Shown here: positions 8,948 through 58,899 of the stretch, piece after piece
Position numbering within the stretch: the stretch's first letter is position 1
Layout of the letters: every line of letters begins with the position of its first letter
Assembly (NCBI RefSeq): GCF_032854445.1
Contig: NC_088304.1
Coordinates: 24,473,513 to 24,537,512 of the forward strand
DNA length: 64,000 nt
Source: Liolophura sinensis
Taxonomy: Eukaryota > Mollusca > Polyplacophora > Chitonida > Chitonidae
Direction: 5' to 3'
Made by a program: the position numbers and the translations under genes
The notes under the pieces: generated by a model
The model's database searches: none
What the model saw: the letters and a program-made list of their open reading frames with translations, nothing else
Told to the model about the DNA's origin: nothing

Positions 8948-9092
8948 ATGGCGTCGGAGAACTCGTTCATAGACTTCCAATTCAGCAAAAACGTCACAAA
9001 AAATTTTGACCAGAACAGACGCTTTTTCTTGCCCCGTCTTCGCTGCACAGATTTTCTGCCCAACATGAGAAAAGTTGAAGGATTTGATCAAG
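8948..9092 (+). CDS. RLR-like exon 1: start codon and first half of CARD1
   Basis: Starts at ATG in AAAATGGCG and codes 48 residues, including the likely first CARD helix (NFDQNRRFFLPRL) and DFLPNM. It ends CAAG|GTAAAA in phase 1, which joins exon 2 across the 9.4-kb array intron to give FDQ|DTKLKIRQ, a continuous CARD. The start is supported by context and phase only. An extra upstream coding exon is possible but not needed. Confidence 0.7.
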
Positions 9093-10181
9093 GTAAAAGT
9101 CTTTTAGTCATAGGCATTACTTCTAGAAGTAATTTAGAAGAAAGGTTTGATAAAAAGGATATGCATAAAGAGACTTGAGAAAACAGAGTGATCATGTAAG
9201 GTTGATGTGAGAGTGGACATGTACGAGTAAGGCTGATGTGAGGGTAGACATGAACAAGTAAGGTTGATGTGACAGTGGACATGTACGAGTAAGGCTGATG
9301 TGAGAGTGGACATGTACAGGTAAGGCTGATGTGAGAGTGGACATGTACAAGTAAGGCTGATGTGAGAGTGGACATGTACAAGTAAGGCTGAAGTGAAAGT
9401 GGACATGTATGAGTAGGGCTGATGTGAGAGTGGAAATGTACAAGTAAGGCTGGTGTTAGAGTAGACATGTACAAGTAAGGCTGATGTGAGAGTGGACATG
9501 TACAAGTAAGGCTGGTGTTAGAGTAGACATGTACAAGTAAGGCTGATGTGAGAGTAGACATATACAAGTAAGGCTGATGTGAGAGTGGACATGTATAAGT
9601 AAGGATGATGTGAGAGTGGACATGTACAAGTAAGGATGATGTGAGAGTGGACATGTATAAGTAAGGATGATGTGAGATTGGACATGTACAAGTAAGGCTG
9701 ATGTGAGAGTGGACATGTACAAGTAAGGCTGAAGTGAGAGTGGACATGTACAAGTAAGGCTGATGTGAGAGTGGACATGTACAAGTAAGGCTGATGTGAG
9801 AGTGGACATGTACAAGTAAGGCTGATGTGAGAGTGGAAATGTACAAGTAAGGCTGGTGTGAGAGTAGACATGTACAAGTAAAGCTGATGTGAGAGTAGAC
9901 ATGTACAAATAAGGCTGATGTGAGAGTAGACATGTACAAGTAAGGCTGATGTGAAAGTGGACATGTACAAGTAAGGCAGCTGTGAGAGTGGACATGTACA
10001 AGTAAGGCTGAAGTGAGAGAGGACATGTACAAGTAAGGCTGATGTGAGAGTGGACATGTACAAGTAAGGCTGATCTGAGAGTGGACATGTACAATTAAGG
10101 CTGATGTGAAAGTGGAAATGTACAAGTAAGGCTAATGTGAAAGTAGACAAGTACAAGTAAGGCTGAAGTGAAAGTGGAAAG

Positions 10182-10445
10182 TGAAAAATTGCATTGTCTG
10201 TCTCGTATTCGTGATATTGTTTTGCTGCGGTAAAGGTTTTTATTACATCTGTTATTGTGCTTATTTGAAAATTTATACTTACCGATAGTGACTGCATGAA
10301 GAATTGAGCAAATATTCATTGATATCAAATGGGAAGCCCAAAAGTTCGTCTTTTCATTCATGTTATTGTTTTATTTTTTCTATTATTGATTTTTATCATA
10401 ACCATCGTGCTGTGGCAAATGCATTCTTCTTCTTCTTCTCATTGA
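10182..10445 (+). repeat. Non-repeat island inside the 31-bp array, copy of 7,667-7,923
   Basis: Array units stop at GAAAGTGGAAAGTG. The sequence then runs AAAAATTGCATTGTCTGTCT through TTCTTCTTCTCATT before array units resume. It is nearly identical to the segment 2.5 kb upstream, in the same orientation. Confidence 0.92.
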
Positions 10446-12049
10446 TGTGGGGCTGATGTGAGAGTGGACATGTACAAGTACATGTAAGACTGATGTGAGA
10501 GTGGACATGTGCAAGTGAGGCTGATGTGAGAGTGGACATGTACAAGTAAGGTTGATGTGAGAGTGGAAATGTACAAGTAAGGCTGGTGTGAGAGTGGACA
10601 TGTACAAGTAAGGGAGATGTGAGAGTAGGCATGTACAAGTAAGGGAGATGTGAGAGTAGGCAAGTACAAGTAAGGCAGCTGTGAGAGTGGACATGTACAA
10701 GTAAGGCTGAAGTGAGAGTGGACATGTACAAGTAAGGCTGATGTGAGAGTGGACATGTACAAGTAAGGCTGAAGTGAAAGTGGACATGTACAAGTAAGGC
10801 TGATGTGAGAGTGGACATGTACAAGTAAGGCTGGTGTTAGAGTAGACATGTACAAGTAAGGCTGGTGTGAGAGTGGACATGTACAAGTAAGGCTGGTGTT
10901 AGAGTAGACATGTACAAGTAAGGCTGATGTGAGAGTAGCCATGTACAAGTAAGGCTGATGTGAGAGTGGACATGTATAAGTAAGGATGATGTGAGAGTGG
11001 ACATGTACAAGTAAGGATGATGTGAGAGTGGAAATGTACAAGTAAGGCTAATGTGAAAGTAGACAAGTACAAGTAAGGCTGAAGTGAAAGTGGACATGTA
11101 TGAGTAGGGCTGATGTGAGAGTGGACATGTACAAGTAAGGCTGATGTCAGAGTGGACATGTACAAGTAAGGATGATGTGAGAGTGGAAATGTACAAGTAA
11201 GGCTAATGTGAAAGTAGACAAGTACAAGTAAGGCTGAAGTGAAAGTGGACATGTATGAGTAGGGCTGATGTGACAGTAGACATGCACAAGTAAGGCTGAT
11301 GTGAGAGTGGACATGTACAAGTAAGGTTGATGTGAGAGTGGACATGTACGAGTAAGGCTGACGTGAAAGCGGGCATGTACAAGTAAGGCTGATGTGAGAG
11401 TGGACATGAACAAGTAAGGCTGAAGTGAAAGTGGACATGTACAAGTAAGGCTGACGTGAAAGTGGACATGTTCAAGTAAGGCTGGTGTCAGTGTGGAAAT
11501 GTACTAATGAGGATGGTGTTATAAGTGACATGTACAAGTACATGTAAGACTGATGTGAGAGTGGGCATGTGCAAGTGAGGCTGATGTGAGAGTAGGCATG
11601 TACAAGTAAGGGAGATGTGAGAGTAGGCATGTACAAGTAAGGGAGATGTGAGAGTAGGCAAGTACAAGTAAGGCAGCTGTGAGAGTGGACGTGTACAAGT
11701 AAGGCTGATGTGAGAGTGGACATGTACAAGTTACGCTGATATGAAAGTAGACATCTACAAGTAAGGCTGATGTGAGAGTGGACATGTACAAGTTAGGCTG
11801 ATGTATGAATAGACATGCACAAGTAAGGCTGATATAACAGTAGAAGTAAAGCTGATATGAAAGTAGAGGCTGATATATGAGTAGACATGTTCAAGTAAGC
11901 TTGATGTGATAATAGACATGTACAAGTTAGGCTGATATGAGAGTGGCCATGTACAAGTAAGGCTGATGTGAGAGTGGACATGTACAAGTAAGACAGTTGT
12001 GAGAGTAGACATGTGCAAGTAAGGCTGATGTGAGAGTGGACATGTATTA

Positions 12050-14090
12050 GTAATTTTGATGTGAGAGTAGGCATGTACAAGTAAGGCTGATGTGAGAGTG
12101 GACATGTACAAGTAAGGTTGATGTGAGAGTGGGCATGTACAAGTAAGACTGATGTGAGAGTGGACATGTACAAGTAAGGCTGATGTGAGAGTAGACATGT
12201 ACAAGTAAGGCTGATGTGAGAGTGGACATGTACAAGTGAGGGTGATGTGAGAGTGGACATGTATAAGTCAGGTTGATGTGAGAGTGGACATGTTCAAGTA
12301 AGTCTGATGTAAGACTGGACATGTTCGAGTAAGGCTGATGTGAGAGAAGACATGTACAAGTAAGGCTGATGTTAGAGCGGATGTGTACAAGTACATGTAA
12401 GACTGATGTGAGAGTGGGCATGTGCAAGTGAGGCTGATGTGAGAGTAGGCATGTACAAGTAAGGGAGATGTGAGAGTAGACATGTACAAGTAAAGCTAAT
12501 GTCAAAATTAACATGTACAAGTAAGGCTGGTGTCAGTTTGGACATGTACTAATAAGGATGATGTGAGAGTGGACATGTACAAGTAAGGCTGATGTGAAAG
12601 TGGACATGTACAAGTAAGGCTGATGTGAGAGTAGACATGTACAAGTAAGGCTGATGTCAGAGTGGACATGTACAAGTAAGGCTGATGTGAGAGTGGACAT
12701 GTACATGTAAGACTGATGTGAGAGTGGGCATGTGCAAGTGAGGCTGATGTGAGTGTAGGCATGTACAATTAAGGGAGATGTGATAATAGACATGTACAAG
12801 TTAGGCTGATATGAGAGTGGACATGTACAAGTAAGACAGTTGTGAGAGTAGACATGTGCAAGTAAGGCTGATTAGAGAGTGGACATGTATTAGTAATTTT
12901 GATGTTAGAGTAGACATGTTCAAGTAAGCCTGATGTGAGAGTAGACATGTACAAGTAAGGCACATGTGAGAGTAAACATGTACAAGTAAGGCTGATGTGA
13001 GAGTGGACATGTACAAGTAAGGCAGCTGTGAGAGTGGACATGTACAAGTAAGGCTGATGTGAGAGTGGACATGTACAAGTAAGGCTGATGTCAGAGTACA
13101 CATGTACCGCTCAGGCTGATGTGAGAGTGGACATGTACAAGTAAGGCTGATGTGAGAGTGGACATGTACAAGTAAGGTTGATGTGAGAGTGGACATGTAC
13201 ATGTAAGGGTGATGTGAGAGTGGACATGTATAAGTCAGGTTGATGTGAGAGTGGACATGTTCAAGTAAGTCTGATGTAAGACTGGACATGTTCGAGTAAG
13301 GCTGATGTGAGAGAAGACATGTACAAGTAAGGCTGATGTTAGAGCGGATGTGTACAAGTACATGTAAGACTGATGTGAGAGTGGGCATGTGCAAGTGAGG
13401 CTGATGTGAGAGTAGGCATGTACAAGTAAGGGAGATGTGAGAGTAGACATGTACAAGTAAAGCTAATGTCAAAATTAACATGTACAAGTAAGGCTGGTGT
13501 CAGTTTGGACATGTACTAATAAGGATGATGTGAGAGTGGACATGTACAAGTAAGGCTGATGTGAAAGTGGACATGTACAAGTAAGGCTGATGTGAGAGTA
13601 GACATGTACAAGTAAGGCTGATGTCAGAGTGGACATGTACAAGTAAGGCTGATGTGAGAGTGGACATGTACATGTAAGACTGATGTGAGAGTGGGCATGT
13701 GCAAGTGAGGCTGATGTGAGTGTAGGCATGTACAAGTAAGGGAGATGTGATAATAGACATGTACAAGTTAGGCTGATATGAGAGTGGACATGTACAAGTA
13801 AGACAGTTGTGAGAGTAGACATGTGCAAGTAAGGCTGATGAGAGAGTGGACATGTATTAGTAATTTTGATGTTAGAGTAGACATGTTCAAGTAAGCCTGA
13901 TGTGAGAGTAGACATGTACAAGTAAGGCACATGTAAGAGTAAACATGTACAAGTAAGGCTGATGTGAGAGTGGACATGTACAAGTAAGGCAGCTGTGAGA
14001 GTGGACATGTACAAGTAAGGCTGATGTGAGAGTGGACATGTACAAGTAAGGCTGATGTCAGAGTACACATGTACAAGTAAGGCTAATGTT
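12050..14090 (+). repeat. Higher-order duplication in the 31-bp array, 967-bp period (block 1)
   Basis: Distinctive variants such as TAAAGCTAATGTCAAAATTA (12,489 and 13,456) and TATTAGTAATTTTGATGT recur with a constant offset of 967 bases. The region around 12.3-13.1 kb is therefore repeated at about 13.25-14.1 kb with very few changes. Confidence 0.85.
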
Positions 14091-14589
14091 AGAGTAGACA
14101 TGTACAGCTCAGGCTGATGTCAGAGTAGACATGTAGAAGTAAGGCTGATGTCAGAGTGGACGTGTACAAGTACATGTAAGAGTGATGTGAGAGTGGGCAT
14201 GTGCAAGTGAGGCTGATGTGAGAGTAGGCATGTACAAATAAGGGAAATGTGAGAGTAGGCATGTACAAGTAAGGGAGATGTGAGAGTAGACATGTACAAG
14301 TAAGGCTGATGTGAGAGTGGACATGTACAAGTGAGGGCGATGTGAGAGTGGACATGCACAAGTAAGGCTGATGTGAGGGTGGAGATGTACAACTGAGGAT
14401 GGTGTTAGAGGGGACATGTACAAATAAGGCTGAGGTGAGAGTAGACATGTACAAGTAAGGCTGATGTCAGAGTGGACATGTACAAGTAAGGCTGATGTGA
14501 GAGTGGACATGTACATGTAAGACTGAGGTGAGAGTAGACATGTACAAGTAAGGCTGATGTCAGAGCTGACATGTACAAGTAAGGCTGGT

Positions 14590-16200
14590 GTTAGAGTGGG
14601 CATGTGCAAGTGAGGCTGATGTGAGAATAGGCATGTACAAGTAAGGGAGATGTATAAGTCAGGTTGATGTGAGAGTGGAAATGTTCAAGTAAGTCTGATG
14701 TAAGACTGGACATGTTCGAGTAAGGCTGATGTGAGAGTGGACATGTACAAGTAAGGCTGATGTTAGAGCGGATGTGTACAAGTAAGGCTGGTGTTAGAGT
14801 AGACATGTACAAGTAAGGCTGATGTGGGATTGGACATGTACAAGTAAGGCTGATGTGAGAGTGGACATGTACATGTAAGACTGATGTGAGAGTGGACATG
14901 TGCAAGTGAGGCTGATGAGAGAGTAGGCATGTACAAGTAAGGGAGATGTGAGTGTAGACATGTACAAGTAAGGGAGATGTGAGAGTGGACATGTAGAAGT
15001 TAGGCTGATATGAGAGTGGACATGTACAAGTAAGGCTGATGTGAGAGTAGACATGTACAAGTAAGGCTGGTGTTAGAGTAGGCATGTACAAGTAAGGCTG
15101 ATGTCAGAATGGACATGTACAAGTAAGGCTGATGTGAGAGTGGACATGTACAAGTAAGGCTGATGTGAGAGTAGACATGTATAAGTAAGGCTGGTGTTAG
15201 AGTAGACATGTACAAGTAAGGCTAATGTTAGAGTGGACATGTACAAGTAAGGCTGGTGTTAGAGTGGACATGTACAAGTAAGGCTGATGTGAGAGTGGAC
15301 ATGTACAAGTAAGGCTGATGTGAGAGTGGACATGTACAAGTAAGGCTGATGTAAGACTGGACATGTTCGAGTAAGGCTGATGTGAGAGTGGACATGTACA
15401 AGTAAGGCTGATGTTAGAGCGGATGTGTACAAGTACATGTAAGACTGATGTGAGAGTGGGCATGTGCAAGTGAGGCTGATGTGAGAGTAGGCATGTACAA
15501 GTAAGGGAGATGTGAGAGTAGACATGTAAAAGTAAAGCTAATGTCAAAGTTAACATGTACAAGTAAGGCTGGTGTCAGTTTGGACAAGTACTAATAAGGA
15601 TGATGTGAGAGTGGACATGTACAAGTAAGGCTGATGTGAGGGTGGAGATATACAACTGAGGATGGTGTTAGAGGGGACATGTACAAATAAGGCTGATGTG
15701 AGAGTAGACATGTACAAGTAAGGCTGATGTCAGAGTGGATGTCTACAAGTAAGGCTGGTGTTAGAGTAGACATGTACAAGTAAGGCTGATGTGGGATTGG
15801 ACATGTACAAGTAAGGCTGATGTGAGAGTGGACATGTACATGTAAGACTGATGTGAGAGTGGACATGTGCAAGTGAGGCTGATGAGAGAGTAGGCATGTA
15901 CAAGTAAGGGAGATGTGAGTGTAGGCATGTACAAGTAAGGGAGATGTGAGAGTGGACATGTAGAAGTTAGGCTGATATGAGAGTGGACATGTACAAGTAA
16001 GGCTGATGTGAGAGTAGACATGTACAAGTAAAGCTGGTGTTAGAGTAGGTGTGTACAAGTAAGGCTGATGTCAGAATGGACATGTACAAGTAAGGCTGAT
16101 GTGAGAGTGGACATGTACAAGTAAGGCTGATGTCAGAGTACACATGTATAAGTAAGGCTGGTGTTAGAGTAGACATGTACAAGTAAGGCTAATGTTAGAG
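14590..16200 (+). repeat. Higher-order duplication in the 31-bp array, 967-bp period (block 2)
   Basis: The variant string GATGTGGGATTGGACATG (14,820 and 15,787) and the GTAGAAGTTAGGCTGATATG variant (14,992 and 15,959) recur at an offset of 967 bases. The offset is the same as in block 1, so one unit length was used at two places. Confidence 0.8.
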
Positions 16201-18522
16201 TGGACATGTACAAGTAAGGCTGGTGTTAGAGTGGACATGTACAAGTAAGGCTGATGTGAGAGTGGACATGTACAAGTAAGGCTGATGTGAGAGTGGACAT
16301 GTACAAGTAAGGCTGATGTGAGAGTGGACATGTACAAGTAAGGCTGATGTGAGAGTGGACATGTACAAGTAAGGCTGGTGTTAGAGTAGACATGTACAAG
16401 TAAGGCTGGTGTTAGAGTAGACATGTACAAGTAAGGCTGAAGTGAGAGTGGACATGTACAAGTAAGGCAGCTGTGAGAGTGGACATGTACAAGTAAGGCT
16501 GATGTGAGAGTGGACATGTACAAGTAAGGCTGGTGTTAGAGTAGACATGTACAAGTAAGGCTGATGTGAGAGTGGACATGTACAAGTAAGGCTGATGTGA
16601 GAGTGGACATGTACAAGTAAGGCTGGTGTTAGAGTAGACATGTACAAGTAAGGCTGGTGTTAGAGTAGACATGTATAAGTAAGGCTGGTGTTAGAGTAGA
16701 CATGTACAAGTAAGGCTGATGTGAGACTGGACATGTACAAGTAAGGCAGCTGTGATAGTGGACATGTACAAGTAAGGCTGGTGTTAGAGTAGACATGTAC
16801 AAGTAAGGCTGATGTGAGAGTGGACATGTACAAGTAAGGCTGATGTGAGAGTACACATGTACAAGTAAGGCAGCTGTGAGAGTGGACATGTACAAGTAAG
16901 GCTGGTGTTATAGTAGACATGTACAAGTAAGGCTGATGTCAAAGTGGACATGTACAAGTAAGGCAGCTGTGAGAGTGGACATGTACAAGTAAGGCTGATG
17001 TGAGAGTGGACATGTACAAGTAAGGCTGGTGTTAGAGTAGACATGTACAAGTAAGGCTGGTGTTAGAGTAGACATGTACAAGTAAGGCTAATGTTAGAGT
17101 AGACATGTACAAGTAAGGCTGATGTGAGAGTGGACATGTACAAGTAAGGCAGCTGTGAGAGTGGACATGTACAAGTAAGGCAGCTGTGAGAGTGGACATG
17201 TACAAGTAAGGCTGATGTGAGAGTGGACATGTACAAGTAAGGCTGGTGTTAGAGTAGACATGTACAAGTAAGGCTGATGTTAGAGTAGATATGTACAAGT
17301 AAGGCTGATGTTAGAGTAGACATGTACAAGTAAGGCTGGTGTTAGAGTAGACATGTACAAGTAAGGCTGATGTTAGAGTGGACATGTACAAGTAAGGCTG
17401 GTGTTAGAGTAGACATGTACAAGTAAGGCTGATGTGAGATTGGACATGTACAAGTAAGGCTGATGTGAGAGTGGACATGTACATGTAAGACTGATGTGAG
17501 AGTGGACATGTGCAAGTGAGGCTGATGAGAGAGTAGGCATGTACAAGTAAGGGAGATGTGAGAGTAGGCATTTACAAGTAAGGGAGATGTGAGAGTGGAC
17601 ATGTAGAAGTTAGGCTGATATGAGAGTGGACATGTACAAGTAAGGCTGGTGTTATAGTAGACATGTACAAGTAAGGCTGATGTCAGAGTAGACATGTACA
17701 AGTAAGGCTGATGTCAGAGTAGACATGTACAGCTCAGGCTGATGTCAGAGTAGACATGTACAAGTACATGTAAGACTGATGTGAGAGTAGGCATGTGCAA
17801 GTGAGGCTGATGTGAGAGTAGGCATGTGCAAGTGAGGCGGATGTAAGAGTAGGCATGTACAAGTAAGGCTGATGTGAGAGTAGACATGTTCAAGTACAGC
17901 TGGTGTGAGGGTGAACATGTGCAAGTAAGGGAGATGTGAGAGTGGACATGTACAAGTAAGGCTGATGTGAGAGTAGACATGTACAAGTAAGGCAGATGTG
18001 AGAGTGGACATGTACCAGTAAGGCTGATGTCAGAGCTAACATGTACAAGTAAGGCTGATGTGAGAGTGGACATGTACAGGTAAGGCTGATGTGAGAGTAG
18101 CCATGTACAGGTAAGGCTGATGTGAGAGTGGACATGTATAAGTAAGGCTGATGTGAGAGTGGACATGTACAAGTAAGGCTGATGTGAGAGTGGACATGTA
18201 TAAGTAAGGCTGATGTGAGAGTGGACATGTACAAGTAAGGCTGATGTGAGAGTGGACATGTATAAGTAAGGATGATGTGAGAGTGGACATGTGCAAGTAC
18301 GGCTGATGTGAGATTAAACATTTCCAGTACAACTTCTTCAACAAAACTCTTGTCAGTAAGCTACACCTTCCACCTTAATTAACACTCCCTCCCCGTATTA
18401 ACTGTAAAGCTGTTTTAAGACACCCACAGCACTAATATTGTTTTTCTTGATTACATTTTAATTCATGAGGTTAAGGTATATAATTCGGAAGATTTATTTG
18501 TGTATCTGTTGAACTGTTGCAG

Positions 18523-18657
18523 ATACAAAACTAAAGATTCGACAGAAAGCAGACGGGTCTCTGTCACGTGAGGCAAATGAGTTATTTTTGGATACACTGA
18601 GAAACAGCAATCAACAAGGAAAATGGTTTCTATTTATAGGAACGTTGACCAAGCTCG
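18523..18657 (+). CDS. RLR-like exon 2: second half of CARD1
   Basis: Acceptor TTGCAG|ATAC, donor CTCG|GTGAGA, phase 1 on both sides. It codes 45 residues (49-93) that match the RIG-I CARD1 pattern of helix 3 to helix 5, with small residues before EANELFLDTL, then GKWFLFIGTLTKLG. It continues into exon 3 as GYELLRDIL, as in RIG-I (helix 6). Confidence 0.85.
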
Positions 18658-19181: not shown

Positions 19182-19517
19182 GTTACGAGCTGCTTAGGGA
19201 CATTCTGACCTCTGAAGATCCAGACATTGCTGAAATCGAGCGCATTGAGAGATTCCTGGAATATTTAACGCCTGTGATAAAAACGAAGGTTGCTCCAATT
19301 CGACTTCTGTCTGCCCTTGTCAGAAATGGGTATTTAGATCGTCATGACAAAGAAAACATTGAGCGTGTTTGTAATAATCAAGGCGATATAGCGGGTACGG
19401 AACTATTGCTGAGTCGTGTCCAGCGATTGAAAATAGATGCGTGTTCTGGCCTTCGGGATGCCTTTCTAGAAAACAACATGGAAGGTGTTATTGAGCAGAT
19501 GAGTCAGTCCTACGCAG
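19182..19517 (+). CDS. RLR-like exon 3: end of CARD1 and all of CARD2
   Basis: Acceptor TTTCTAG|GTTACG, donor GCAG|GTTGGT, phase 1 on both sides. Residues 94-205. CARD2 shows FLEYLTPVIKTKVAP, LLSALVRNGYLDRHD, NNQGDIAGTELLLSRV and SGLRDAFLENN, a typical six-helix CARD. In RLRs the tandem CARDs recruit the MAVS adaptor by CARD-CARD contact. Whether that partner exists here cannot be told from the window. Confidence 0.9.
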
Positions 19518-21650: not shown

Positions 21651-21794
21651 AATTTCTGGAGCAAGAACAAGGTGATGGGGTTTCAGCTTTGTCTACATCA
21701 TTTAGCAGATTGGGTCTTGCTGGCTCATTCAGAAGGCGATCTGGCCTTGGGAGCGGCGAACTATCTGATGAGGAGGAAGCCGCATCACCACCAG
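21651..21794 (+). CDS. RLR-like exon 4: CARD-helicase linker
   Basis: Acceptor AACACAG|AATTTC, donor CCAG|GTCTGC, phase 1 on both sides. It codes residues 206-253, rich in Ser, Gly, Arg and Glu (SRLGLAGSFRRRSGLGSGEL, then SDEEEA). Low complexity and charge fit the flexible linker between CARD2 and Hel1 in RLRs. No fold is recognised. Confidence 0.75.
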
Positions 21795-23825: not shown

Positions 23826-23980
23826 AAAGATCTCGGTCACCAACGCTGTGCGAAGCAAAGAATCTGACGCTAATCGATTACCAACAAGAACTGTATTCTG
23901 TCGTGCCAAGAGACAAGAACACGGTGATTCTGTGTCCAGCGAAAAGCGGAAAACGTTTTGTGGCTCTGAAAGCCATCAAG
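23826..23980 (+). CDS. RLR-like exon 5: Q motif and degenerate Walker A
   Basis: Acceptor TTACAG|AAAG (phase 1), donor ATCAAG|GTGAGC (phase 0). Residues 254-305. LIDYQQELY matches the helicase Q motif (Gln273). Motif I, normally PTGSGKT, reads CPAKSGKR: the phosphate-binding Lys (296) is present, but Thr/Ser, which coordinates magnesium, is Arg297, and the first Gly is Lys. Confidence 0.88.
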
Positions 23981-24224
23981 GTGAGCCACTGGGGAATTGA
24001 GCACGGCTGTCGCCTTGTAAGATTCGTCGTCTCAGGACACATCTATAGTTTTTGCCACTCACCCCACTTTGTTCAAAAGGTACTGTTCATGAACATTGAA
24101 TATGAAGTCAACAGGAGAATTTCACGTTTATCTGCATATTTCTTTGGTCTTGAAATCAGAAATTATTGTTTTAATAAATGAATTCACGAGGTCTTTTTTC
24201 TTTCATTCTCTTTTTAGTTTTTTC

Positions 24225-24258
<34 letters not shown>

Positions 24259-24306
24259 TCTATGAATAATATCCGTCTTTCTTTTTGCTTTGCTTGTTTC
24301 ATAAAG

Positions 24307-24675
24307 GAACATTTATCCCTAGCCGGCAACCCGGATGGAAAGGTTGCATATCTGGTGACAAGGTCATTCTTGGCGGAGAAAGTTTTCCGAAGATGTCAAG
24401 TCTTTCTCAGCGACATTCCTTCTGCTAAAATGGCAACACTTTCGCCTGGTGACCGTTCATCCAAATCTTTTAAAGAAAAAAGCGTACTGATCGCTAAGGC
24501 GAAACGGTTTGAAAATGAGCTGAATGAAGAGTTGGTTAAATGGACAGATTTCTCCTTAGTGATTTTGGAATTAGGAGTCGACTACTACGAAAAACGAAAC
24601 CACGTATATAAGGAAATCATGAAAAAGTATCACCAGCTGAGACAGTCCTTACAGCAAGCCCAACATTTGCCTCAG
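24307..24675 (+). CDS. RLR-like exon 6: Hel1 core with the DECH box replaced
   Basis: Acceptor CATAAAG|GAAC, donor CCTCAG|GTATTT, phase 0 on both sides. Residues 306-428. GKVAYLVTRSFLAEKVFRR matches motif Ia of RLRs. WTDFSLVIL is followed by ELGVDYYEK, where active RLRs have DECHH, and VYKEIMKKY then matches the conserved helix after motif II. The flanking match shows that the box itself was lost while the fold remained. Confidence 0.9.
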
Positions 24676-25053
24676 GTATTTTGTGCTGACAATAGCTCGG
24701 TTGGCAGGATAAAAAAAGAACAAGAAGAAACCACATTAAAAGTCTTTCCGCATCTTTTTCCCAATTCCTTTATTCTTGAGACAAGGAAAACCTACGGTAG
24801 CTTATGTGGCCCAGAAATCTCCTACCTTAAATACTGCAGCACTATTTGCGCGTGTGAAAATAACAGATAGTGATTTGCAGGCATTTCAATACAGACGTTG
24901 AGAAATGTGGTTGAAGTTTCGGTGGTGGTATCACCAGAGTTTCCAGCGTGTAAAACAGTAGATTTTTAGTAAATACTTTTCTCTTCTGTGTTCTTTCCTG
25001 ATATGACATCTTTTTCTCTAATGTTGTAAATTATTCTTGCTGTATTTGGAAAG

Positions 25054-25210
25054 ATACTCGTATTGTCGACGTCAATCTGTGGGGAATCCTTTTTGGAGGA
25101 CCTCTTTCGTACAGCAATGGAAACCTGTGCAACCTTCGATATTCATGCTGTTGCTCTGGTTCGAAAGTGCGTAAATTCTTTACGACAGCAAGTCTCCATT
25201 CCCCTTATGG
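25054..25210 (+). CDS. RLR-like exon 7: motif III region
   Basis: Acceptor GGAAAG|ATACTC (phase 0), donor ATGG|GTAAGT (phase 1). Residues 429-480. The junction reads LPQ|ILVLSTSICG, equivalent to LPQILGLTASPG, so motif III is altered. CATFDIHAVALV and LRQQVSIPL follow as in the LC..LD and ...V..P stretch of RLRs. Confidence 0.85.
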
Positions 25211-25440
25211 GTAAGTCATCAGATACAAAGAGCTATGTTAGAGAATGTCAAGGTCAGGGAATTAGTTTGGTGGTTTGTGGTTTTATATAAAGGTTAAACA
25301 CCATCAGTGGCTTAAATGAACGACATAGGGTGACTATACATGTCCTAAGAACACATGTAAGCCATTTTAAGTGAAAAGCCGACGTTTTTCTATCCAGTCG
25401 AAGTGAGGGTATATATATTATGTATTTATTTTTTCTCTAG

Positions 25441-25545
25441 AAAGTACAAGAGCACCGCAAAAACAGGACCGCGGTTTTGACAGCCTGATTCACGAGCTTA
25501 TCTCTCGTGTAGAAGGGGACATGAAGAAAGTCTATCAGTCCAACA
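25441..25545 (+). CDS. RLR-like exon 8: start of Hel2i
   Basis: Acceptor TTCTCTAG|AAAG, donor AACA|GTAAGT, phase 1 on both sides. Residues 481-515. FDSLIHELISRVEGDMKKV fits the first helix of the RLR insertion domain (F...I..LM..I). Confidence 0.8.
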
Positions 25546-26190
25546 GTAAGTTATCGAAATATTACTGTAATCAAGTGCTAATTCCAAAACGAGGCTGTAA
25601 TAACCTAGCTGGTCACAGAATGCAGCCTTGAAGATGCATTGTGAGAAGTATGACGTCACAAATCATGATATCGTCTGACAGCTTAGCCCTACAAATGAAT
25701 GAATGACCGTAGTGCCGAAGGTGTAAAGGACTTACCTTTAACAAAGTACTGACGTCACCAAGGTCCACAAGCGGCAAAATGCAGAGAAAAGTTAATAAAT
25801 TTTACATACAGCTTACTCTGTTACTGCTGCCGCTTGATTAAGAGATTTCTTAGGTATCTGGTATAGGACGGTAGTTTTGCTCCGGCCACTCCGGTTTTCT
25901 ACTAAACATAAGCCTCTCCGTCGTTAAATATAAGGAGACCATTTCTGAAAAGAAAAAAATATAAATACATACGTACCGGTAATATACCAGCAAAAGATCG
26001 TTAGTATATCTACCGGTTTCACAGCCACTAACGATATGTGGAATTAAGTAGTTGGTGAATGCAGAATTGCTGTGGCAATTTCATTAAACCGAAAGTTTCT
26101 TCACAGCTTGAACAATTGGAGAAAATGCCCACTTTATGTCACGCTGTCACGCATGTCACATTCTTAGCTCTGCTCATCTGTCTCTTGTAG

Positions 26191-26375
26191 AAATGCCTGC
26201 TGGTCCAGACCATTCCGGAACCAGAATGGCTGAACTGATATCTCCTCCCACAGGTAGAACCTCGGTGAAGTACATGACATGGCTGAAAACGAACAAATCA
26301 ACACTTGGATATGCATCAAAGGCAAAAGGCTGTAAACACGCTGGATTCTTTTTGAACTGTTTGAAACTAGCCACG
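26191..26375 (+). CDS. RLR-like exon 9: Hel2i
   Basis: Acceptor TCTTGTAG|AAATG (phase 1), donor GCCACG|GTATTT (phase 0). Residues 516-577. GRTSVKYMTWLKTN corresponds to the G...Y..W helix of RLR Hel2i, and HAGFFLNCLKLAT leads into exon 10. An internal GT in CACAG|GTAGAA could allow an alternative donor. Confidence 0.78.
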
Positions 26376-26758
26376 GTATTTATTTAGCTATACAAATGCA
26401 TGTTCGTAGAAAGATAATCACATGTACACTGTAATCTTATGACTCTTTTTTTAGCTCACCTGTACAAAGTACAGGCGTAGCTTATGCCCTAACTCGAGCG
26501 TCGACGTCGGTGTAGGTGTCCAATAACAGTGGAAACAATTAGTAAAGGTGTCGCAGAGGTGTCACTATCGCAGAGGTGTCACCATCGCAGAGGTAAAACT
26601 GTAAAGAAATGGCTTGTTCAACTCCCAACGGTGAGTGTTGTAAAAGTACAACATATATACAGTATACAAAACAATGCAAATAACAAAATACAGTATATAG
26701 TTTCTCACGGAGCTCAGCGCGCGCACACGGAGTTTTAATGAATTCCTCAAATGAAAGG

Positions 26759-27029
26759 ACCGGGCCCCGACAGCACAGTTGCTAGAGCGTCCGCTTCAGG
26801 AGCAGTAGATCCAGGATCAATACTGGGTCGAGTCACACCTAAAACTAAAAGAGGAACTTGTAACTTCCTCGCTTGGTGCTCAGCACGAAGGGGATAATGC
26901 AACGACTTACCTTTGGTATGTCGTCTCAGTGAAGCAGCACTAGATAAAAGTGCGGTGGAAATTCGCCCTGCAACAAGGAAGCGCATTATATGACTGACGT
27001 TAAACCCCAAGCACTCAGTCACTCACTCA
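26759..27029 (+). mobile_element. SINE-B copy (second tRNA-derived family) with 13-bp target-site duplication
   Basis: The head CACAGTTGCTAGAGCG...GGGTCGAGTCACACC resembles tRNA A and B boxes, and the 3' end is a CACTCACTCACTC tail. It is flanked by CTCAAATGAAAGG at 26,746-26,758 and 27,030-27,042 (first CTCA shared with the tail). The body contains TGTCGTCTCAGTGAAGCAGC and AAATTCGCCCTGCAACAAGG. Confidence 0.85.
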
Positions 27030-27243
27030 CTCAAATGAAAGGTAATAATGGTATCCAGGTGACAACCTGTCGTACTCTAATGCACACCGACGATGGTTTG
27101 TATCAAACCTCACTGCAAGCCACACTCTTCCTTTCAAAACTGGTTAGGTAAACCCACAAGTCTATGCCGGGCATTAAGAGTTTAGTCCTTGGGTCTTAAC
27201 ACACAGTGTATTTCAAGGCAACGTCACCTCCAAGTGGAAATGG

Positions 27244-27510
27244 GGCCTCTGTCGGTCAGTTGGATAGCTAGCGCGGCGTAATGACCCAGGAGCCTCTCAC
27301 CCATGCGGTCACTCTGAGTTCAAGTCCTGCCCATGCTAGCTCCCTCCCCAGCAGTACGTGCAAAGGTCTATCAGTAACCTGCGGATGGTCGTGGGTTTCC
27401 CCAGGGCTCTGCCCGGCTTCCTCCCACCATAATGCTGGCCGCCGTCGTATGTGAAATATTCTTGAGTACGGCGTAGAACACCAATCAAAAAAATAAATAA
27501 ATAAATCCAG
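27244..27510 (+). mobile_element. SINE-A copy (forward)
   Basis: GCCTCTGTCGGTCAGTTGGA head, GAGTTCAAGTCC B box, GGATGGTCGTGGGTTTCCCC, ACCATAATGCTGGCCGCCGT and an AAATAAATAAATAAA tail. Nearly full length. Confidence 0.88.
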
Positions 27511-28292
27511 TGGAACTTGAATAAAAGCACGTCACAGTACGAAGAGCCGATGAATAATATAAGCTCAGGACAGAAGTTACAAACACAAGAATAGTAGGCG
27601 ACGAAACAGATGACTTAAAGGCTTAACTAGCATTCGGTTACAAAATCCCTTCTTTCAAACTGGACTTTTCCGATGGGCGAAACTACCGTTGTAAACTTCT
27701 CACTACAGGCAGTTTACTTATGGACTGCAAACTAACCCTTGCGAGCTGGGCTTTATATACTCTCGAACAACATACTAGAATCCATGAACATAAACAATAA
27801 ATGTAATGAGAGCAATTTATAGCTGATTCTCAAATGACTACATATTTACTGTACCGCGAAAGCACATATATATTGACAGTGAGAATACAGAAAGATCGCA
27901 TGGGTTAAATACACGCTAACAAAGGACCGGCTTTCCCATGTAAACATCTCCGGTCTGAGTCACTTGCTGACCCGGTTAGCATCAATCCCCGACATTAACA
28001 ATGAAATGAAGAGGATGTATTATATATGAAGTCACAACAAATGTTCAACAAAATGTTAGGGGTTGTATCTTAAAAAGTACTGCATGCATTGAGCTCAGGT
28101 TTTACACAAATGTAGAACAAGGTAACACGAGGGGGATATCCCATCCTTGATTCGCTATGTGCATATTAAATACCGAAAAATACAAAATTCATGACTTCAG
28201 TCCTTTATGTATTGAGCTGAAGTTTTGCATTCGTGTTTCTCCTGCAAGCGAATGTATTGGGTATTAGAATTGGTGTTAAAGTAAATATCAGT

Positions 28293-28456
28293 GAGTGAGT
28301 GAGTGCTTGGGGTTTAACGTCGTACTCAACAGTTTTTCAGTCATATGACGACGAAGGAATCATTAGGGTGCATGTACGTATAATGTGCCTCCTTGTTGCA
28401 GGACGGATTTCCACCGCTCTTTTATTTAGTGCTGCTTCACTGAGACGACTTACCGA
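28293..28456 (-). mobile_element. SINE-B copy (reverse, truncated)
   Basis: Starts with the inverted tail GTGAGTGAGTGAGTGCTTGG, then GGTTTAACGTCGTACTCAAC, TGTTGCAGGACGGATTTCCA and GTGCTGCTTCACTGAGACGA. The tRNA-like head is missing. Confidence 0.8.
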
Positions 28457-28747
28457 GTAAATATCAGTGGCGATGTCTCACAACGTACTACATATATTCA
28501 CATGAAGTTTTACATGCATACAAAGCACAATGACACAAGGGGAACATTCCATCGCTGATGCTCTGTGTACATATTGAAAACCGCAAATTACAAAATTCAC
28601 GACTTCAGTCTTTTATGTATTGAGCTGAAGTTGTGCATTCGTGTTTCTCCTGCAAGCGAGCCCTTTGGTAGCCATGCTATTAAATCTAAGTTTGTGACAG
28701 GGTCGGGGTACATTTTGCACATAACGCCTTATGACGAGAAAATTTGA

Positions 28748-28832
28748 TTTGATTGGTATTTTTTTACGCCGTACTGACGAATATTTCACTTACACGACGG
28801 CAGACCTTCCCACGTACGGTCGGAGAGGAAGC
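28748..28832 (-). mobile_element. SINE-A remnant with internal deletion (reverse)
   Basis: Tail segment TTTTACGCCGTACTGACGAA...TACACGACGG joins directly to CAGACCTTCCCACGTACGGT. The middle part of SINE-A is missing. Confidence 0.75.
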
Positions 28833-28946
28833 GACGGAGATAAGTCCTATTTCGTTTATTAATTTTTCCAGTTTACAGGAACGCTGTATAATTAATCCCA
28901 GTCAAATATGGTCATGATTAGCATTATACAACCGGGAAACGGGGGC

Positions 28947-29183
28947 GGGGGGGCTCCGTGCCTCAGTTGGTTAGCGCACTAGCGTAGCGTAATGACCCAG
29001 AAGCCTCTCACCAACGTGAGATCCCTGTGAGTTCAACTCATGCTGGCTTCCTCTCCGATCGTAAGTTGGAAGGTCTGTCAGCAACCTGTGGATGGTCGTG
29101 GGTTTCCCCCGGGAAACGCCGTCGTATAAGTGAAATATTCTTGAGTACGTCGTAAAACACCAATCAAATAAATAAATAAATCT
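28947..29183 (+). mobile_element. SINE-A copy (forward)
   Basis: GGGGGGCTCCGTGCCTCAGT head, GTGAGTTCAACTCA B box, GGATGGTCGTGGGTTTCCCC, a short deletion, GTATAAGTGAAATATTCTTG and an AAATAAATAAATAAA tail. Confidence 0.88.
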
Positions 29184-29456
29184 CAATTCAACGGGATAAG
29201 AACATAAAACTGTGGACTAGCCAAGGCCTTTCCTAGATTCTTAGCTGGCGCCCCGAGACTGGCTGGGGTGGCACATCTGGGGTCTTAAGTCAGACAGCGC
29301 TATAGACATTGCCCTGAACGCACTGTCTGGAATATACATATATCGAAATAGGTTAGTCAATCTTACCTTTCCTGATATCATACCTGTTATACTATGGTGC
29401 AGAAATAAATAGTAAACTTTAACACATGATAGTAATACCAAAAACATTTCGTTCAG

Positions 29457-29601
29457 ATTTATCAGGCTGGCTTGTTCATCAACGCTGAGTGTCGGAGGTT
29501 CGATGCTTTGAATTATATGAGGAAAAAATTGAAGCAGTTAGAGGAGAATGTTGCTGATTCTAAAGACAGGATTTTGATTGGTTTATTTCGGGACTTCTAC
29601 G
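29457..29601 (+). CDS. RLR-like exon 10: end of Hel2i, approach to Hel2
   Basis: Acceptor CGTTCAG|ATTTAT (phase 0), donor TACG|GTAAGA (phase 1). Residues 578-625. AGLFINAECRRFDALNYM matches the RLR helix A.LIN...R..DA...L. The charged stretch RKKLKQLEENVADSKDR and LIGLFRDFY follow. Confidence 0.85.
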
Positions 29602-30255
29602 GTAAGATAGTCTGTTGTCTACAAATATCCAATTCAGAGAAATAAAATTTTGCTCCAAATAGATCCGGTGAAAAATTCAAGTTTATATGTATAGTTATTG
29701 AATGTTTTTTTTATAGTATTTCATAAACTCTATTATCTTCGCACGCATGAAATCACTATTTGAGCTATCTGACAAATTCATTAAAATATAGCATATTGTA
29801 TTATTATATACAATTTAAGTTCACCTATTTGTGATCTATATTAAGTTTGTGTTTGGAGAATAAAATCACGTTGATTTTTTAACGCGACATCAAACAATAA
29901 TATTGCCTTTTTAACAGTGTGCATAGGTGGAGTAAACCACCGTCCAATGATAAGTAACTGACCAGCCTTTCCACGTGTAATTCAAACACTGTCGTCCACA
30001 GAACCAGTTAATTGTGTATATCATCATACTGGGTCGGCCACCTTCAAAGCTAGCGTTCGCGTATACCGGTATACTTAAAAATGTACATGCCCCCAAGCAC
30101 CATGGCACAAGTAGAATTGGGTAAGAAATACAGCGGTGTTAGCAGAATTTAGTTACGCCTTACTGGTCTATAAATAGAAATACAGGCATCTTAACCTCTA
30201 TTTAGGTAATCATGCGATTATTACTGCTGATGTTATTACTTTTTAATTGTTGCAG

Positions 30256-30471
30256 ACAAAGAGAAGCGTCTCAAACGCATCTGCTCACCAAATGAGGAAG
30301 ATACTACTGCATTTGCTGTGAAGACCAAACTAGCAGCAATATACCAAGGGAATCACAGGTACAAAGCGGCAGTTCTGGTGAAGCGCGCGGAGGTGACTTT
30401 GTACATCATGTTCTACTTGAGGAAAAAACTGCCACACGTCAAGTTCGAGTGTGTTGTAGGGCATCATCAGG
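30256..30471 (+). CDS. RLR-like exon 11: Hel2 motif IV region
   Basis: Acceptor TTGCAG|ACAAAG, donor CATCAGG|GTATGC, phase 1 on both sides. Residues 626-697. Matches the start of Hel2 in RLRs: a basic helix, then KAAVLVKRAEVTLYIMFYL where RLRs have ILFVKTR..V..L..W, then VKFECVVGHHQ in the place of the LTGHG strand. Confidence 0.85.
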
Positions 30472-30516
30472 GTATGCATCGTTTTGTTCATCTATTTATG
30501 TAGTAATCTCTAATTA

Positions 30517-30650
30517 TTTGTTTGCTATTTTACGCCCCACTCGAAAAATTTCACTTACATGACGGCGACCAACATTACAGTGGGAGGAAACCGGGTCCAC
30601 CCGGGGGAAACCAACGACTATCCGTAGGTTGTTGGTAGACCCTCCCATCG
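30517..30650 (-). mobile_element. SINE-A fragment (reverse)
   Basis: TGCTATTTTACGCCCCACTC, CACTTACATGACGGCGACCA, GTGGGAGGAAACCGGGTCCA and ACGACTATCCGTAGGTTGTT, the SINE-A tail half. It is followed by a family C fragment (30,655-30,716, CATTGACCCGGGACGTCCAT). Confidence 0.75.
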
Positions 30651-32751
30651 TTTTAGGAACTGCAGTCATTGACCCGGGACGTCCATTTCGGTTGATGGCT
30701 TATATACGGCCCAGGTGAATCAAATAAGCAATGAAAGGCTATCTAGACGAAGTGGAGGGAGGATTCGTAACTGTGTAGTAGTTGTGTAGAAAAACACGAT
30801 GAAGTCTTTGTTTCAGGGCCCGTTTGTTCCAATGTGTGTTAGCTAATATTTTTATTATGTCACAGTATATATTTAACATTTCAGTGAAACTTAACCATTC
30901 GAGTTATAGAAAAGCCAAACCACACAGCAGAAGACTTAGGTCATATTGAATATACTGTTATGTAGTTATTTGGGGGGGCAAAGTACAAAATTTAAAACTC
31001 GGCTTAAAGTTTAAGCTGGTAATGTGTTTGAGGACAATTTTTGAAGAACCGGACCAAGATTCCTGAACGATGTCCCTTGCCGCTGAACGCAGATCTAGTA
31101 CACGATCATAGAATCAATTAGGGTTATCACCTGAGCTTGAGGCGTTTGATCACGGTTTAACACCTGGTATTCGATTACATAATAGACCGAGAGCTTTAGC
31201 CCGAGGTCTGTTATGTTACCTCTTACCAGGCCTACAAACCAAGATGAAACATGTCAAGCAAATGACCCTAAATTTGTTCGACGGCGAGTGCTTAATTTTG
31301 TGTATTGTCCAGTCGTGTTGTCCATCAGAAACAATCTTGTTTTACAGGTAGTTTTGTTTTCGTCAGGTGTGTACAGTACTGATGCATGTAAGGCGACACC
31401 AAATTCCAAACCTTTGTGGAATATGAATAAATTGGCATTATTCATGTCGATTCGGAGCTTAGGGGAAAAACACGGTGTTCGAAACTATCAGTTTAAATCG
31501 GACCCAATAACATGTGAAATTATGATTAAGATATCTGGATTTCACTCTATCTTTGTGCCTATTTGACACAGGACAACAACCAACCCATTAAAATGACCCT
31601 CAAAGCACATGTGATGTACCAAGCATAATCATAACTACAAAATTATTAAATCCTTAGACATTTTATGTTATTTTCTTGCAGAACAATGGCATTGGGTATA
31701 AAATGCAGAACTTTTTAAAATCTCCCACTTGTCGACACAGATTAAGACACAATACAAGCTTTTTGTATCCATAAGAAACATTTTGAACTGTTCTTTAAAA
31801 TTAGTGTCCAATTCATTACGTATGTCAAATGGAGTACCAAAGATGCACACGGGACAGTTCTAAGTGATAAGTCTTACATGTCAGAATAAGAAAGAAAATT
31901 GCACTCTTGCCTTTTCTAATTTCTTAGCACATATCGCCTAAATATGGCTGAGATATTGCCGACGGGACCTTCAGCCATACTCGTTAATTCTTAGCAAATA
32001 ATTAGGTCATGTGTATTGCGTATATTTGCTTATTGTGAACGTTTCACACAGGTATGATAGGGTACAAAGTTTTAGATATGTGACGTGAGGAAACGCTTAA
32101 ATACGTTGATTCTCTGAGAGAGAGAGAGTGAATGAAGGAATTTGGGGATTTGGCTTTTATTCCTATTTCCTGTAGGCTGCAGGGTAATATGCAAATTTGC
32201 AGAGTCTGTGAGTCGGGAAATGGCCTTGTCTGTTCTGTATAAAAGGGGAAGGAATAGTCCTGCTGGTGGTAGACGCCAGTAATTTAAGCTCTCTCTCTCT
32301 CTCTCCCTCTGCTACTACTATTTACTTTGGCAGTACGTAACAGAAAACACGGGATTCAAGTCTAAAAGGTATGTTGTGGACTTAATTAAAACCGAGAGTG
32401 ATAAGTGGTGTATTCAGGTCTCCTGTCAGTGATACTGGGCAATACACAAAGTAAAACGCTCGCGAGCAACAATATCCCCAGTGTATAATACTTGGTTACG
32501 ACGTCCGTGTGCACATGTGAGAGACGACGGTAATGCTAAAATTACCATATCTAGATGGAAATATGGACGGCGTTTGCGCCGTACTCTGGAATATCTCCCT
32601 TCTAAAATGCACCAGCTAGATTCAAGAATTCTGGAAACAGCTGAGGTATCATACCTGAATTAGGTCCTTTGCCGGCTCAGTGATACATTTAGGTATAGTA
32701 CAAGATCCCATTTTTCAGAACTAAGGGGCTAATGGCCAGTGAAGGGAAACC

Positions 32752-32902
32752 GGTTTAATAAGTGGGAAGGTCTGCGGATGGTCGTGGGTTTCCCCCGGGC
32801 TCTGTTCGGTTTCCTCCCACCACAATGCTGGCCGCCGTCATATAAGTGAAATATCATTGAGTGCAGCGTAAAACACCAATCAAATAAATAAATAAATAAA
32901 CG
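32752..32902 (+). mobile_element. SINE-A fragment (forward, head missing)
   Basis: GGAAGGTCTGCGGATGGTCG, GGTTTCCTCCCACCACAATG, CATATAAGTGAAATATCATT and CCAATCAAATAAATAAATAA. The tRNA-like head is absent. Confidence 0.82.
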
Positions 32903-32947
32903 ACGCCACATCACGAAGAAGTCTTCTTGTAGCATTCCTATAGTGCA

Positions 32948-33155
32948 GCCTCAATGGGACATCATGCCAAAGACACCAGATACGACACCTCGCCCAGTCA
33001 CATTATTCTGACACAAGACACAACGCCCCGCCCAGTCACATTATACTGACACCCATCCGACCATGCAGTGCTTGGCTTATTTCTGTGATGCCGAGCGCCA
33101 AGGTCATGACGGTAAGGCCGAGATTACCGATTCGGGATCGAACGAGGGCATCTTC
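32948..33155 (-). mobile_element. SINE-B-related fragment (reverse)
   Basis: ACATCATGCCAAAGACACCA and CGCCCAGTCACATTATACTG are shared with the element at about 40,993-41,275. A part around CGCCCAGTCACATTAT is duplicated in tandem here (about 50-base spacing). Confidence 0.6.
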
Positions 33156-33237
33156 GAGAATGTTTTTGTGAGTTAACAATTCTTTAACAAGACAGTTCCT
33201 AGACTACACACTTAAAGGTAACAAATCCATGTTACAG

Positions 33238-33399
33238 AATACTCTGTGGAGATTGAGCGGCTTTCTAAGACGGGGTTCCATGTGTTGATTACTACCTGGC
33301 CAATCCTCGCCTTTCACCTTGGTAAAGAGACGGGCACCTGGGACTATATAATAAGGACGGACTGTCCGGGCCATGACGTAATCACATGGACACATCAAG
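33238..33399 (+). CDS. RLR-like exon 12: Hel2 with motifs V and VI lost
   Basis: Acceptor GTTACAG|AATACT, donor CATCAAG|GTAACG, phase 1 on both sides. Residues 698-751. YSVEIERLSKTGFHVLITT matches the helix and strand leading to motif V, but the next residues are WPILAFHLG where active RLRs have VAEEGLDI. DYIIRTDCPGHDVITWTHQ then occupies the IRY...QARGRAR region with no arginine pair. Confidence 0.85.
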
Positions 33400-34035: not shown

Positions 34036-34235
34036 TTCTTTTGTTTATTTATTTTATTGGTGTCGCACTCATGGATATTTCACATACGACGGCGGCCAGT
34101 ATCATGATGGGAAGAAAAAGGGCAGAACCCACGACCATCCGCAGGTTGGTGGAAGACTTTCCCACTTACGGCTGGAGAGAGAAGCAGCATTGGTGAGAGA
34201 CTCCCGGGTCTTTTCGCCGTGCAGGCGGGTTAACC
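34036..34235 (-). mobile_element. SINE-A copy (reverse, decayed)
   Basis: GTCGCACTCATGGATATTTC, ACGGCGGCCAGTATCATGAT, ACCCACGACCATCCGCAGGT and ACTCCCGGGTCTTTTCGCCG. It has several deletions. It lies in intron 12. Confidence 0.75.
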
Positions 34236-34942: not shown

Positions 34943-35619
34943 TGCCATCTGATGAAAGACAGCCAGTGAGTCGGTTTGCTTTTCCTGATACAGAATCACA
35001 GAGTCCAGTGGATCTGCTGATGGAGTCATCCATCGAGAAAGTTACTCTGGAAATAGCACAACAGCAGAAAGATTTCAGCGAGCTCTACCAGGGCCTCCTG
35101 AATGACGTCCGAATTGCTTCATCGGAACGGGAGTTATGGAGTCGCTCTACGCGCAGCTTTACGAAGTTGTGTGACGAAATGGTGGGTGAATTCTTCTGCA
35201 CTGGCTGCGGCGCCTTTGTCTGTAACAGAGGGTATGTGCGAAATTTGGATGACCTCTGGTTAGGCTTAGATCCGGGCCTCATCCACAGGCTTAGCACAGT
35301 AAGACATCCCTTACAAATTGTTTTCAGCAATGGTTACGCCAAACTTGGCCGGTTCGTTTGCAAAGATTGTGGGCAGAAATGGGGTATCATCGCACACGTG
35401 CTGGGAAAGCCGCATCTGGCCTTTGCAAAAGAGGGCCTTGACTATCTCATTGATGGTCGCTACCAGAAGTACAGCTGGAAATGGAAATACGCCAATATTA
35501 GTGTGGAGGAATTCAAATATAACCGGGACTTAGGACGTTGTTTGCCGTCCTCTTTTTGTGTTGAAGGCGAAACTATCACTCAGCTTCAAATGCGATTGCC
35601 AGAACCTGACGAGGAATAA
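34943..35619 (+). CDS. RLR-like exon 13: pincer and zinc-binding C-terminal domain, stop codon
   Basis: Acceptor CTTTCAG|TGCCAT (phase 1), stop TAA at 35,617-35,619. Residues 752-976. The first part is helical and charged, as in the RLR pincer. The C-terminal domain shows FFCTGCGAFVC, then GRFVCKDCGQKWGI, matching the zinc site and the CxxxDWGI strand of the RIG-I regulatory domain that binds RNA ends. All four cysteines (837, 840, 891, 894) are present. The second pair is spaced C-x2-C, shorter than the C-x4-C of human RIG-I. The tail after SWKWKY is longer than usual. Confidence 0.93.
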
Positions 35620-58856: not shown

Positions 58857-58899
58857 CTGTAAAAATAAAAAAAAAGAAACATGTCAGTCTGAAAGAAAA

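Follow-up and report, generated by a model that had tools for sequence, protein, structure and literature searches.

A 64-kb window of the Liolophura sinensis genome (contig NC_088304.1, positions 24,473,513 to 24,537,512; the window denotes this whole stretch) holds a RIG-I-like receptor (RLR) gene, here called gene A, which bears CARDs and from whose helicase the ATPase motifs are gone. An initial annotation had read the gene in this way from the letters alone, and a motif scan, paralogues in the same genome and the contrast with canonical RLRs uphold that reading. As far as sequence can tell, A is a member of an RLR pseudohelicase subfamily and not a decaying gene: vestigial motifs sit in a helicase sequence kept under constraint, which is one of the marks of a pseudohelicase. 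As to function, we lean cautiously towards an ATP-independent regulator of canonical RLRs within that subfamily.

Structure and domains of gene A

Gene A lies on the plus strand at 8948-35619 and, rebuilt from the raw sequence, consists of 13 exons with a joined coding sequence of 2931 nt that encodes 976 amino acids with no internal stop, all 12 of its introns being GT-AG. The earlier statement that the 13 exons join without a stop or frameshift is therefore confirmed, although the coordinates given with it (23826-33399) cover exons 5-12 only. Base composition predicts about 56 stops in the gene, a figure that gives no fair probability because the exons were picked as open. The domain order is CARD, CARD, Hel1, Hel2i, a divergent Hel2 and a zinc-binding C-terminal domain (CTD), spread over the exons as follows (B is a paralogue described below; E is the expectation value):

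8948..9092, plus strand: exon 1, start codon and first half of CARD1 (52% identical in B; CARD_2 E 0.0037 for the CARD1 part)
18523..18657, plus strand: exon 2, second half of CARD1 (gene model, CARD_2; frameshift in the B copy)
19182..19517, plus strand: exon 3, CARD2 (CARD_2 E 8.7e-11)
21651..21794, plus strand: exon 4, linker (gene model; 64% identical in B)
23826..23980, plus strand: exon 5, Hel1 with motif I replaced (CPAKSGKR; motif alignment)
24307..24675, plus strand: exon 6, Hel1 with motifs Ia, Ib and II changed (ELG.DY at the DECH site; motif alignment)
25054..25210, plus strand: exon 7, Hel1 with motif III changed (LSTSIC; motif alignment)
25441..25545, plus strand: exon 8, Hel2i (RIG-I_C E 3.3e-10 across exons 8-10)
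26191..26375, plus strand: exon 9, Hel2i (RIG-I_C)
29457..29601, plus strand: exon 10, end of Hel2i (RIG-I_C)
30256..30471, plus strand: exon 11, putative first half of the Hel2 core, motif IV region (B copy 43%; canonical exon at the same place)
33238..33399, plus strand: exon 12, putative Hel2 motif IVa-VI exon with ITTWPILAFHLG and ITWTHQ (B copy 71%; phases of the canonical motif V-VI exon)
34943..35619, plus strand: exon 13, end of Hel2, pincer, zinc CTD and stop codon (RIG-I_C-RD E 1e-8)

Exon 11, exon 12 or both can be removed without loss of frame, so exon-skipped forms of A are possible. On the whole protein, Pfam reports CARD_2 (2.5e-13), DEAD (1.4e-6), RIG-I_C (Hel2i, PF18119; 2.1e-9) and RIG-I_C-RD (PF11648; 1.1e-7), the last three all above Pfam cut-offs, and Helicase_C finds no Pfam match. 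NCBIfam gives one weak match, far under its cut-off, and no other nucleotide-binding family reaches its cut-off in A or B. The best solved-structure match is duck RIG-I 4a2w (E 5.8e-18), and the match starts inside CARD1 at residue 45. Judged by the DEAD score, by RIG-I as best structure and by exon phases shared with canonical RLRs, the helicase of A is a superfamily 2 (SF2) domain by descent. A tblastn search found no second copy of the protein in the window, and one scan each of a viral contig and a genome contig collection found no relative.

Both CARDs had been described as kept, which holds firmly for CARD2 (8.7e-11 on its own, over the Pfam cut-off) and less so for CARD1 (0.0037 on its own, under the cut-off, with exon 1 52% identical in B). 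The four zinc cysteines were likewise said to be kept, and the CTD alignment bears this out (4 of 4). Among the 12 CTD columns invariant in five references A retains nine, including these cysteines and RIG-I K907 and W908, as against 7 of the 21 Hel1 motif columns treated below (p 0.03); K858 and K861 (as R) are also retained. The columns of H830 (RIG-I numbering; invariant in the five references), which has a role in triphosphate binding in RIG-I, and of K888 (K in four of the five) are lost. Roles in triphosphate binding are reported for K858 and K888 of RIG-I (PMC4733034). With the H830 and K888 columns gone, RNA-end sensing by A is not assured, so that the earlier label of an RNA-end domain stands for the zinc site and core and fails at these two columns. 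Single-sequence structure models, which carry little information, gave a mean pLDDT (predicted local distance difference test) of 38 for exon 13 and, for exon 11, a pLDDT of 77 with two helices and two short strands.

Replaced motifs shared by a paralogous family

The five strings listed in the initial annotation (CPAKSGKR, ELGV, LSTSIC, WPILAFHLG and ITWTHQ) are present in A as written. Under the usual helicase motif names, motifs I, Ib and II of Hel1 are replaced and motif III is changed, the threonine of motif Ib, which we take to correspond to RIG-I T347, now being lysine. None of the catalytic RLR patterns (I TGxGKT, II DECH, VI QxRGR) occurs in A, and a six-frame pattern scan of the 64 kb returned zero matches for canonical motifs I, II, III, V and VI, which speaks against exons with canonical DECH or GKT elsewhere in the window. 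When Hel1 was aligned with RIG-I, LGP2 and MDA5 as reference rows (57 invariant columns in the scored stretch), A retained 7 of 21 motif columns and 20 of 36 non-motif columns. Pairs of canonical RLRs are 66-81% identical in the motif columns versus 28-37% in the scaffold (p 6.4e-5 or less); A compared with each canonical receptor is 28-41% identical in motif columns and 23-31% in scaffold (p 0.19-0.84). The conserved excess of the motif columns is gone in A, and its scaffold is conserved about as it is among RIG-I, LGP2 and MDA5.

The initial annotation had suggested looking for orthologues with the same motif losses; a search of the same genome (609 Mb) recovered paralogues that have them. 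Paralogue B lies at 32051913-32093700 of contig C10 (plus strand) and paralogue C at 32027223-32050187 of the same contig (minus strand); a partial copy, C473, is open across exons 8-13. The two C10 paralogues stand head to head about 1.7 kb apart (C10:32050187-32051913), an interval that is perhaps a shared promoter region, and A is found on the same contig about 7.5 Mb distant. Modelled with the phases of A, exons 1 and 4-13 of B are open and 9 of these 11 have exactly A's length. The motif sites read:

Motif I site: A CPAKSGKR, B CPAKSGKR, C GPRKSGKT
Motif II site: A LELGVDYY, B LELGADYY, C LELGEDYF
Motif III site: A LSTSIC, B LSTSLC, C LSASFC
Motif V site: A LITTWPILAFHL, B LITTWPILAFHL, C LITTWPLLVYHL
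Motif VI site: A TWTHQ, B TWTHP, C TWEHQ

The three share the signature KSGK, LELG.DY, LS.S.C, LITTWP.L..HL and TW.H, with C, in which SGKT and SAS are present, the least changed member. Six canonical RLRs share 51 invariant Hel1 columns, of which A and B each keep 22 and C keeps 25. A and B agree at 24 of the 29 changed columns (one of them a shared gap) and A and C at 12, compared with 139 and 71 of 198 positions in the rest of Hel1 (p 0.19 for the A-B comparison); the replacement residues are about as conserved as other Hel1 residues and do not drift faster. In unrooted trees A, B and C form one clade on a long branch, at 100/99 for the CTD (12 rows) and 100/100 for Hel1 (9 rows).

Three canonical RLR genes (K1-K3) lie in tandem on contig C6 (33316877-33371169), two of them 93% identical across exons 5-13, and their motifs are intact (TGSGKT, DECH, LTAS, AEEGLDI). 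In Pfam, B has no DEAD match up to E 1 and no Helicase_C match. Since K2 scores 1.5e-20 for Helicase_C and 4.1e-22 for DEAD in the same library, the absence of Helicase_C from A and B and of DEAD from B is no effect of the method. With phases left free and MDA5 templates, exons 5, 6, 7 and 12 of K1-K3 share A's phases in all 12 cases (two of them near-ties), exon 12 corresponding to the canonical motif V-VI exon in all three genes; exon 11 agrees in none of the three, its donor phase matching and its acceptor differing.

The Hel2 region required separate treatment. Direct likeness of exons 11 and 12 to vertebrate Hel2 is no better than that of shuffles (z -1.3 and -0.9), and neither exon is among the matches listed for a Hel2 profile hidden Markov model. 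In a ranking of candidate exons, exon 12 shared the top place among 60 open stretches of its own strand with a score of 20.8, which rivals on the opposite strand (up to 24.5) and in control DNA (up to 22.8) exceeded, and exon 11 came eighth of 26; codon usage in exon 12 is poor (-6.2 bits in frame, +5.3 in another frame). That these exons are chance open reading frames was rejected through their paralogue matches: they are real because B carries matching exons, at 71% identity for exon 12 (E 1.6e-23) and 43% for exon 11 (E 3.3e-10). When A, B, C and C473 were combined into a profile, it aligned in correct register with that of canonical Hel2, though weakly (probability 2.5%, E 0.019), a score reached by 3 of 200 column shuffles. 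Place, phase and this weak profile match suggest that exons 11 and 12 are Hel2. The assignment of motifs V and VI is correct by exon position, although not demonstrable from the window alone, where exons 11 and 12 show no direct detectable similarity to vertebrate Hel2. Of 30 Hel2 columns invariant among seven canonical RLRs, in an uncertain alignment, A keeps 2, B 4 and C 5.

Selection, proposed function and rival readings

Ratios of nonsynonymous to synonymous change (dN/dS) were computed by the Nei-Gojobori method with our own script. Between A and B, 755 codons of exons 4-13 gave dS 0.74, dN 0.19 and a ratio of 0.26 (0.21-0.33); by part, the ratio is 0.24 for Hel1, 0.36 for Hel2i, 0.39 for Hel2, 0.16 for the CTD exon (13) and 0.34 for the linker, with 0.39 (0.16-0.95) for exon 1 and 0.31 (0.17-0.55) for CARD2 (exon 3, in two pieces). 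Every part measured thus lies below 1, exon 2 being outside the set. The K2-K3 ratio is 0.61 (0.42-0.85), and for A-C, K1-K2 and A-K2 dS was saturated and no ratio was drawn. In simulations of neutral drift at six depths, none of the 400 runs per depth combined 7 or fewer retained sites (of 21) with freedom from stops; where 7 sites remained, the runs averaged 25.5 stops and never had fewer than 14 (704 codons, eight homology-supported exons). A codon-usage model trained on the neighbouring G-protein-coupled receptor (GPCR) gene scores A at +7.8 bits in frame versus -68 and -52 in the other frames, and 9 of the 13 exons score highest in the true frame. The per-codon value of A is 0.01 bits, between those of intron windows (-0.14) and of the training gene (0.10-0.17). 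A shows none of the marks of a pseudogene (stops, frameshifts, dN/dS near 1), which appear as stops in a relic on contig C13 and in part in the CARD exons of B and the C copy on C10. The claim that ATPase loss is not neutral decay is borne out by the A-B ratio and the shared replacement motifs, which together imply that the motor was lost before the A/B split and that the protein was then under purifying selection.

We propose that the ancestor of A was probably a CARD-CARD-Hel1-Hel2i-Hel2-CTD receptor, that ATP hydrolysis would have been lost before A, B and C diverged, with ATP binding and helicase RNA contacts very probably lost by then too, and that purifying selection then kept a protein whose former motif sites hold conserved residues of their own. 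Hydrolysis by A is not expected because motif II lacks its acid pair and motif VI its arginines; ATP binding appears unlikely despite SGK, and the lysine in motif Ib suggests that the Hel1 RNA contacts are lost. A would most likely neither translocate nor proofread. It may instead regulate the canonical RLRs of the same genome without ATP, binding partner proteins and, through the CTD, perhaps RNA ends weakly, holding its CARDs against Hel2i and dampening or tuning CARD signalling as a decoy. The folding, the partners and the direction of effect of A are what we infer.

Work on RIG-I bears on this proposal in two directions. Human RIG-I K270I, deficient in ATP binding, is reported to bind RNA without signalling, T347A to block signalling, and the hydrolysis-defective E373Q to signal in uninfected cells in a manner that requires the T347 contact and the CTD (PMC4733034). 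Given the silence of the ATP-binding-deficient receptor, A is most likely a silent regulator or decoy. By fluorescence resonance energy transfer (FRET), RNA alone is reported to activate RIG-I, ATP analogues having little effect on CARD ejection (PMC6774723), which keeps an ATP-free sensor open for A. As an active sensor, A would signal without ATP once a ligand, possibly of another kind, on the CTD and Hel2i frees the CARDs. CARD2, Hel2i and CTD over Pfam cut-offs and the constraint on CARD2 fit such a receptor, while K270I, the lost H830 and K888 columns and the motif Ib lysine speak against it, and we find it rather doubtful. Slightly less doubtful, yet still tentative, is the wider proposition that a CARD-bearing subfamily runs the RLR scaffold without ATP, with its own signature (KSGK, LELG.DY, LITTWP, TW.H) at the former catalytic sites, selection having kept it alongside the three canonical RLRs as a dedicated sensor or switch that needs no ATP. 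With catalytic receptors it is difficult to tell whether ATP serves RLRs in activation or only in proofreading; a motor-less CARD-bearing family under purifying selection beside catalytic paralogues would make the question testable and would add RNA sensing to the known range of pseudoenzymes. That this small family keeps its alarm and scaffold parts, with other conserved residues in place of the engine, suggests that it regulates or senses in another way.

Several observations weigh against a motor-less regulator under selection. Loss of invariant columns from motifs and scaffold of A does not differ significantly (p 0.17), and the decoy role is argued by analogy. The P-loop SGK persists in A and the Hel1 of C scores 6.8e-10 for DEAD (A, 1.4e-6), which together with SGKT and SAS in C makes residual nucleotide binding possible, most so in C. 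B is frameshifted once in exon 2 and once in exon 3 (C10:32067609-32069226), so its CARDs look lost, although assembly errors could account for both frameshifts. In the C10 copy of C the expected exons 3-4 fall in a 5 kb stretch of N, exon 9 is broken and exons 8 and 10 have no convincing candidate; C versus C473 gives a dN/dS of 1.57 (0-8.2), with few changes and no constraint visible; and a CTD-exon copy on C13 (10142060-10142710) carries six stops and is a dead relative. The subfamily also decays, some members losing CARDs or dying, and A is whole; frameshifts and stops, which the initial annotation had named as contrary evidence in relatives, are seen in kin and not in A.

The frameshifts of B, the stops on C13, the wide-error C-C473 ratio and a codon-usage fit poorer in A than in the training gene would suit the view that A is a decaying or unexpressed duplicate, open by chance; the A-B ratio, the drift simulations and the in-frame codon score, even though the true frame leads in only 9 of the 13 exons, make this improbable. 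We give still less credence to the idea that the replaced motifs create a novel active site or bind a different nucleotide or form of RNA: replacement residues as conserved between A and B as other Hel1 positions, with SGK in A and SGKT in C, would suit it, and the missing motif II acids and motif VI arginines, with no other nucleotide-binding family over cut-off in A or B, do not. Least credible of all is a gene-model or assembly artefact with true canonical-motif exons elsewhere; until the genome was searched, little besides splice fit supported exons 11-12, but the window contains no canonical motif pattern in six frames and no N, and the same exons and motifs recur in B and C, which for the motifs largely refutes it.

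Neighbouring features and known systems

Intron 1 of gene A contains a 9.1-kb satellite array, and the remaining features of the window are these:

9196..18313: array of a 31-bp satellite with strong GC (guanine-cytosine) skew
~19840-20680, 27240-27510, 28930-29190, 32750-32900 and 34040-34250, both orientations: dispersed repeat in introns of gene A, identified by eye
50131-62722, minus strand: class C GPCR-like locus, with five consecutive ANF_receptor (Venus-flytrap) open stretches upstream of one 7tm_3 stretch

Should the GPCR-like locus be a single gene, its layout with multiple ligand domains would be unusual. Rfam at gathering thresholds and a tRNA scan found nothing in the window.

Compared with known receptors, A resembles canonical RIG-I and MDA5 in its CARD-CARD-Hel1-Hel2i-Hel2-CTD order and zinc CTD, and the canonical RLRs of its own genome in exon phases. 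It departs from RIG-I and MDA5 in that its ATP-site and RNA-contact motifs are replaced and its Hel2 is unseen by Pfam. LGP2, an active ATPase, is like A in its RLR helicase scaffold and CTD and as a possible regulator; A is its reverse, with CARDs kept and ATPase motifs gone. The pseudohelicases Utp25 and Deinococcus PriA differ from A in that, to our knowledge, they are not immune receptors and carry neither a CARD nor a RIG-I CTD. They resemble it in being helicase-like with vestigial or variant catalytic motifs (PMC9539457). LGP2 is described as lacking CARDs in a source that also describes an oyster RIG-I/MAVS pathway (PMC5557890). Among the matches listed in searches of an open-access library, which lacks most subscription papers, no title or abstract dealt with an ATPase-dead CARD-bearing RLR family. 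Nematostella RLRa is, like A, a CARD-bearing RLR paralogue with an altered helicase domain, for which double-stranded RNA binding was not detected and a possibly regulatory role is proposed; unlike A, it is reported to be a short truncation, and motif replacement is not described in the part of that report drawn on here (PMC8476169). In lophotrochozoan RLR expansions (Clusters I and II) the novelty described lies in N-terminal domains, lost ATPase motifs going unmentioned in the part of the account we cite, and these expansions resemble the family of A in their multiple copies, tandem arrays and divergent clusters (PMC8998645).

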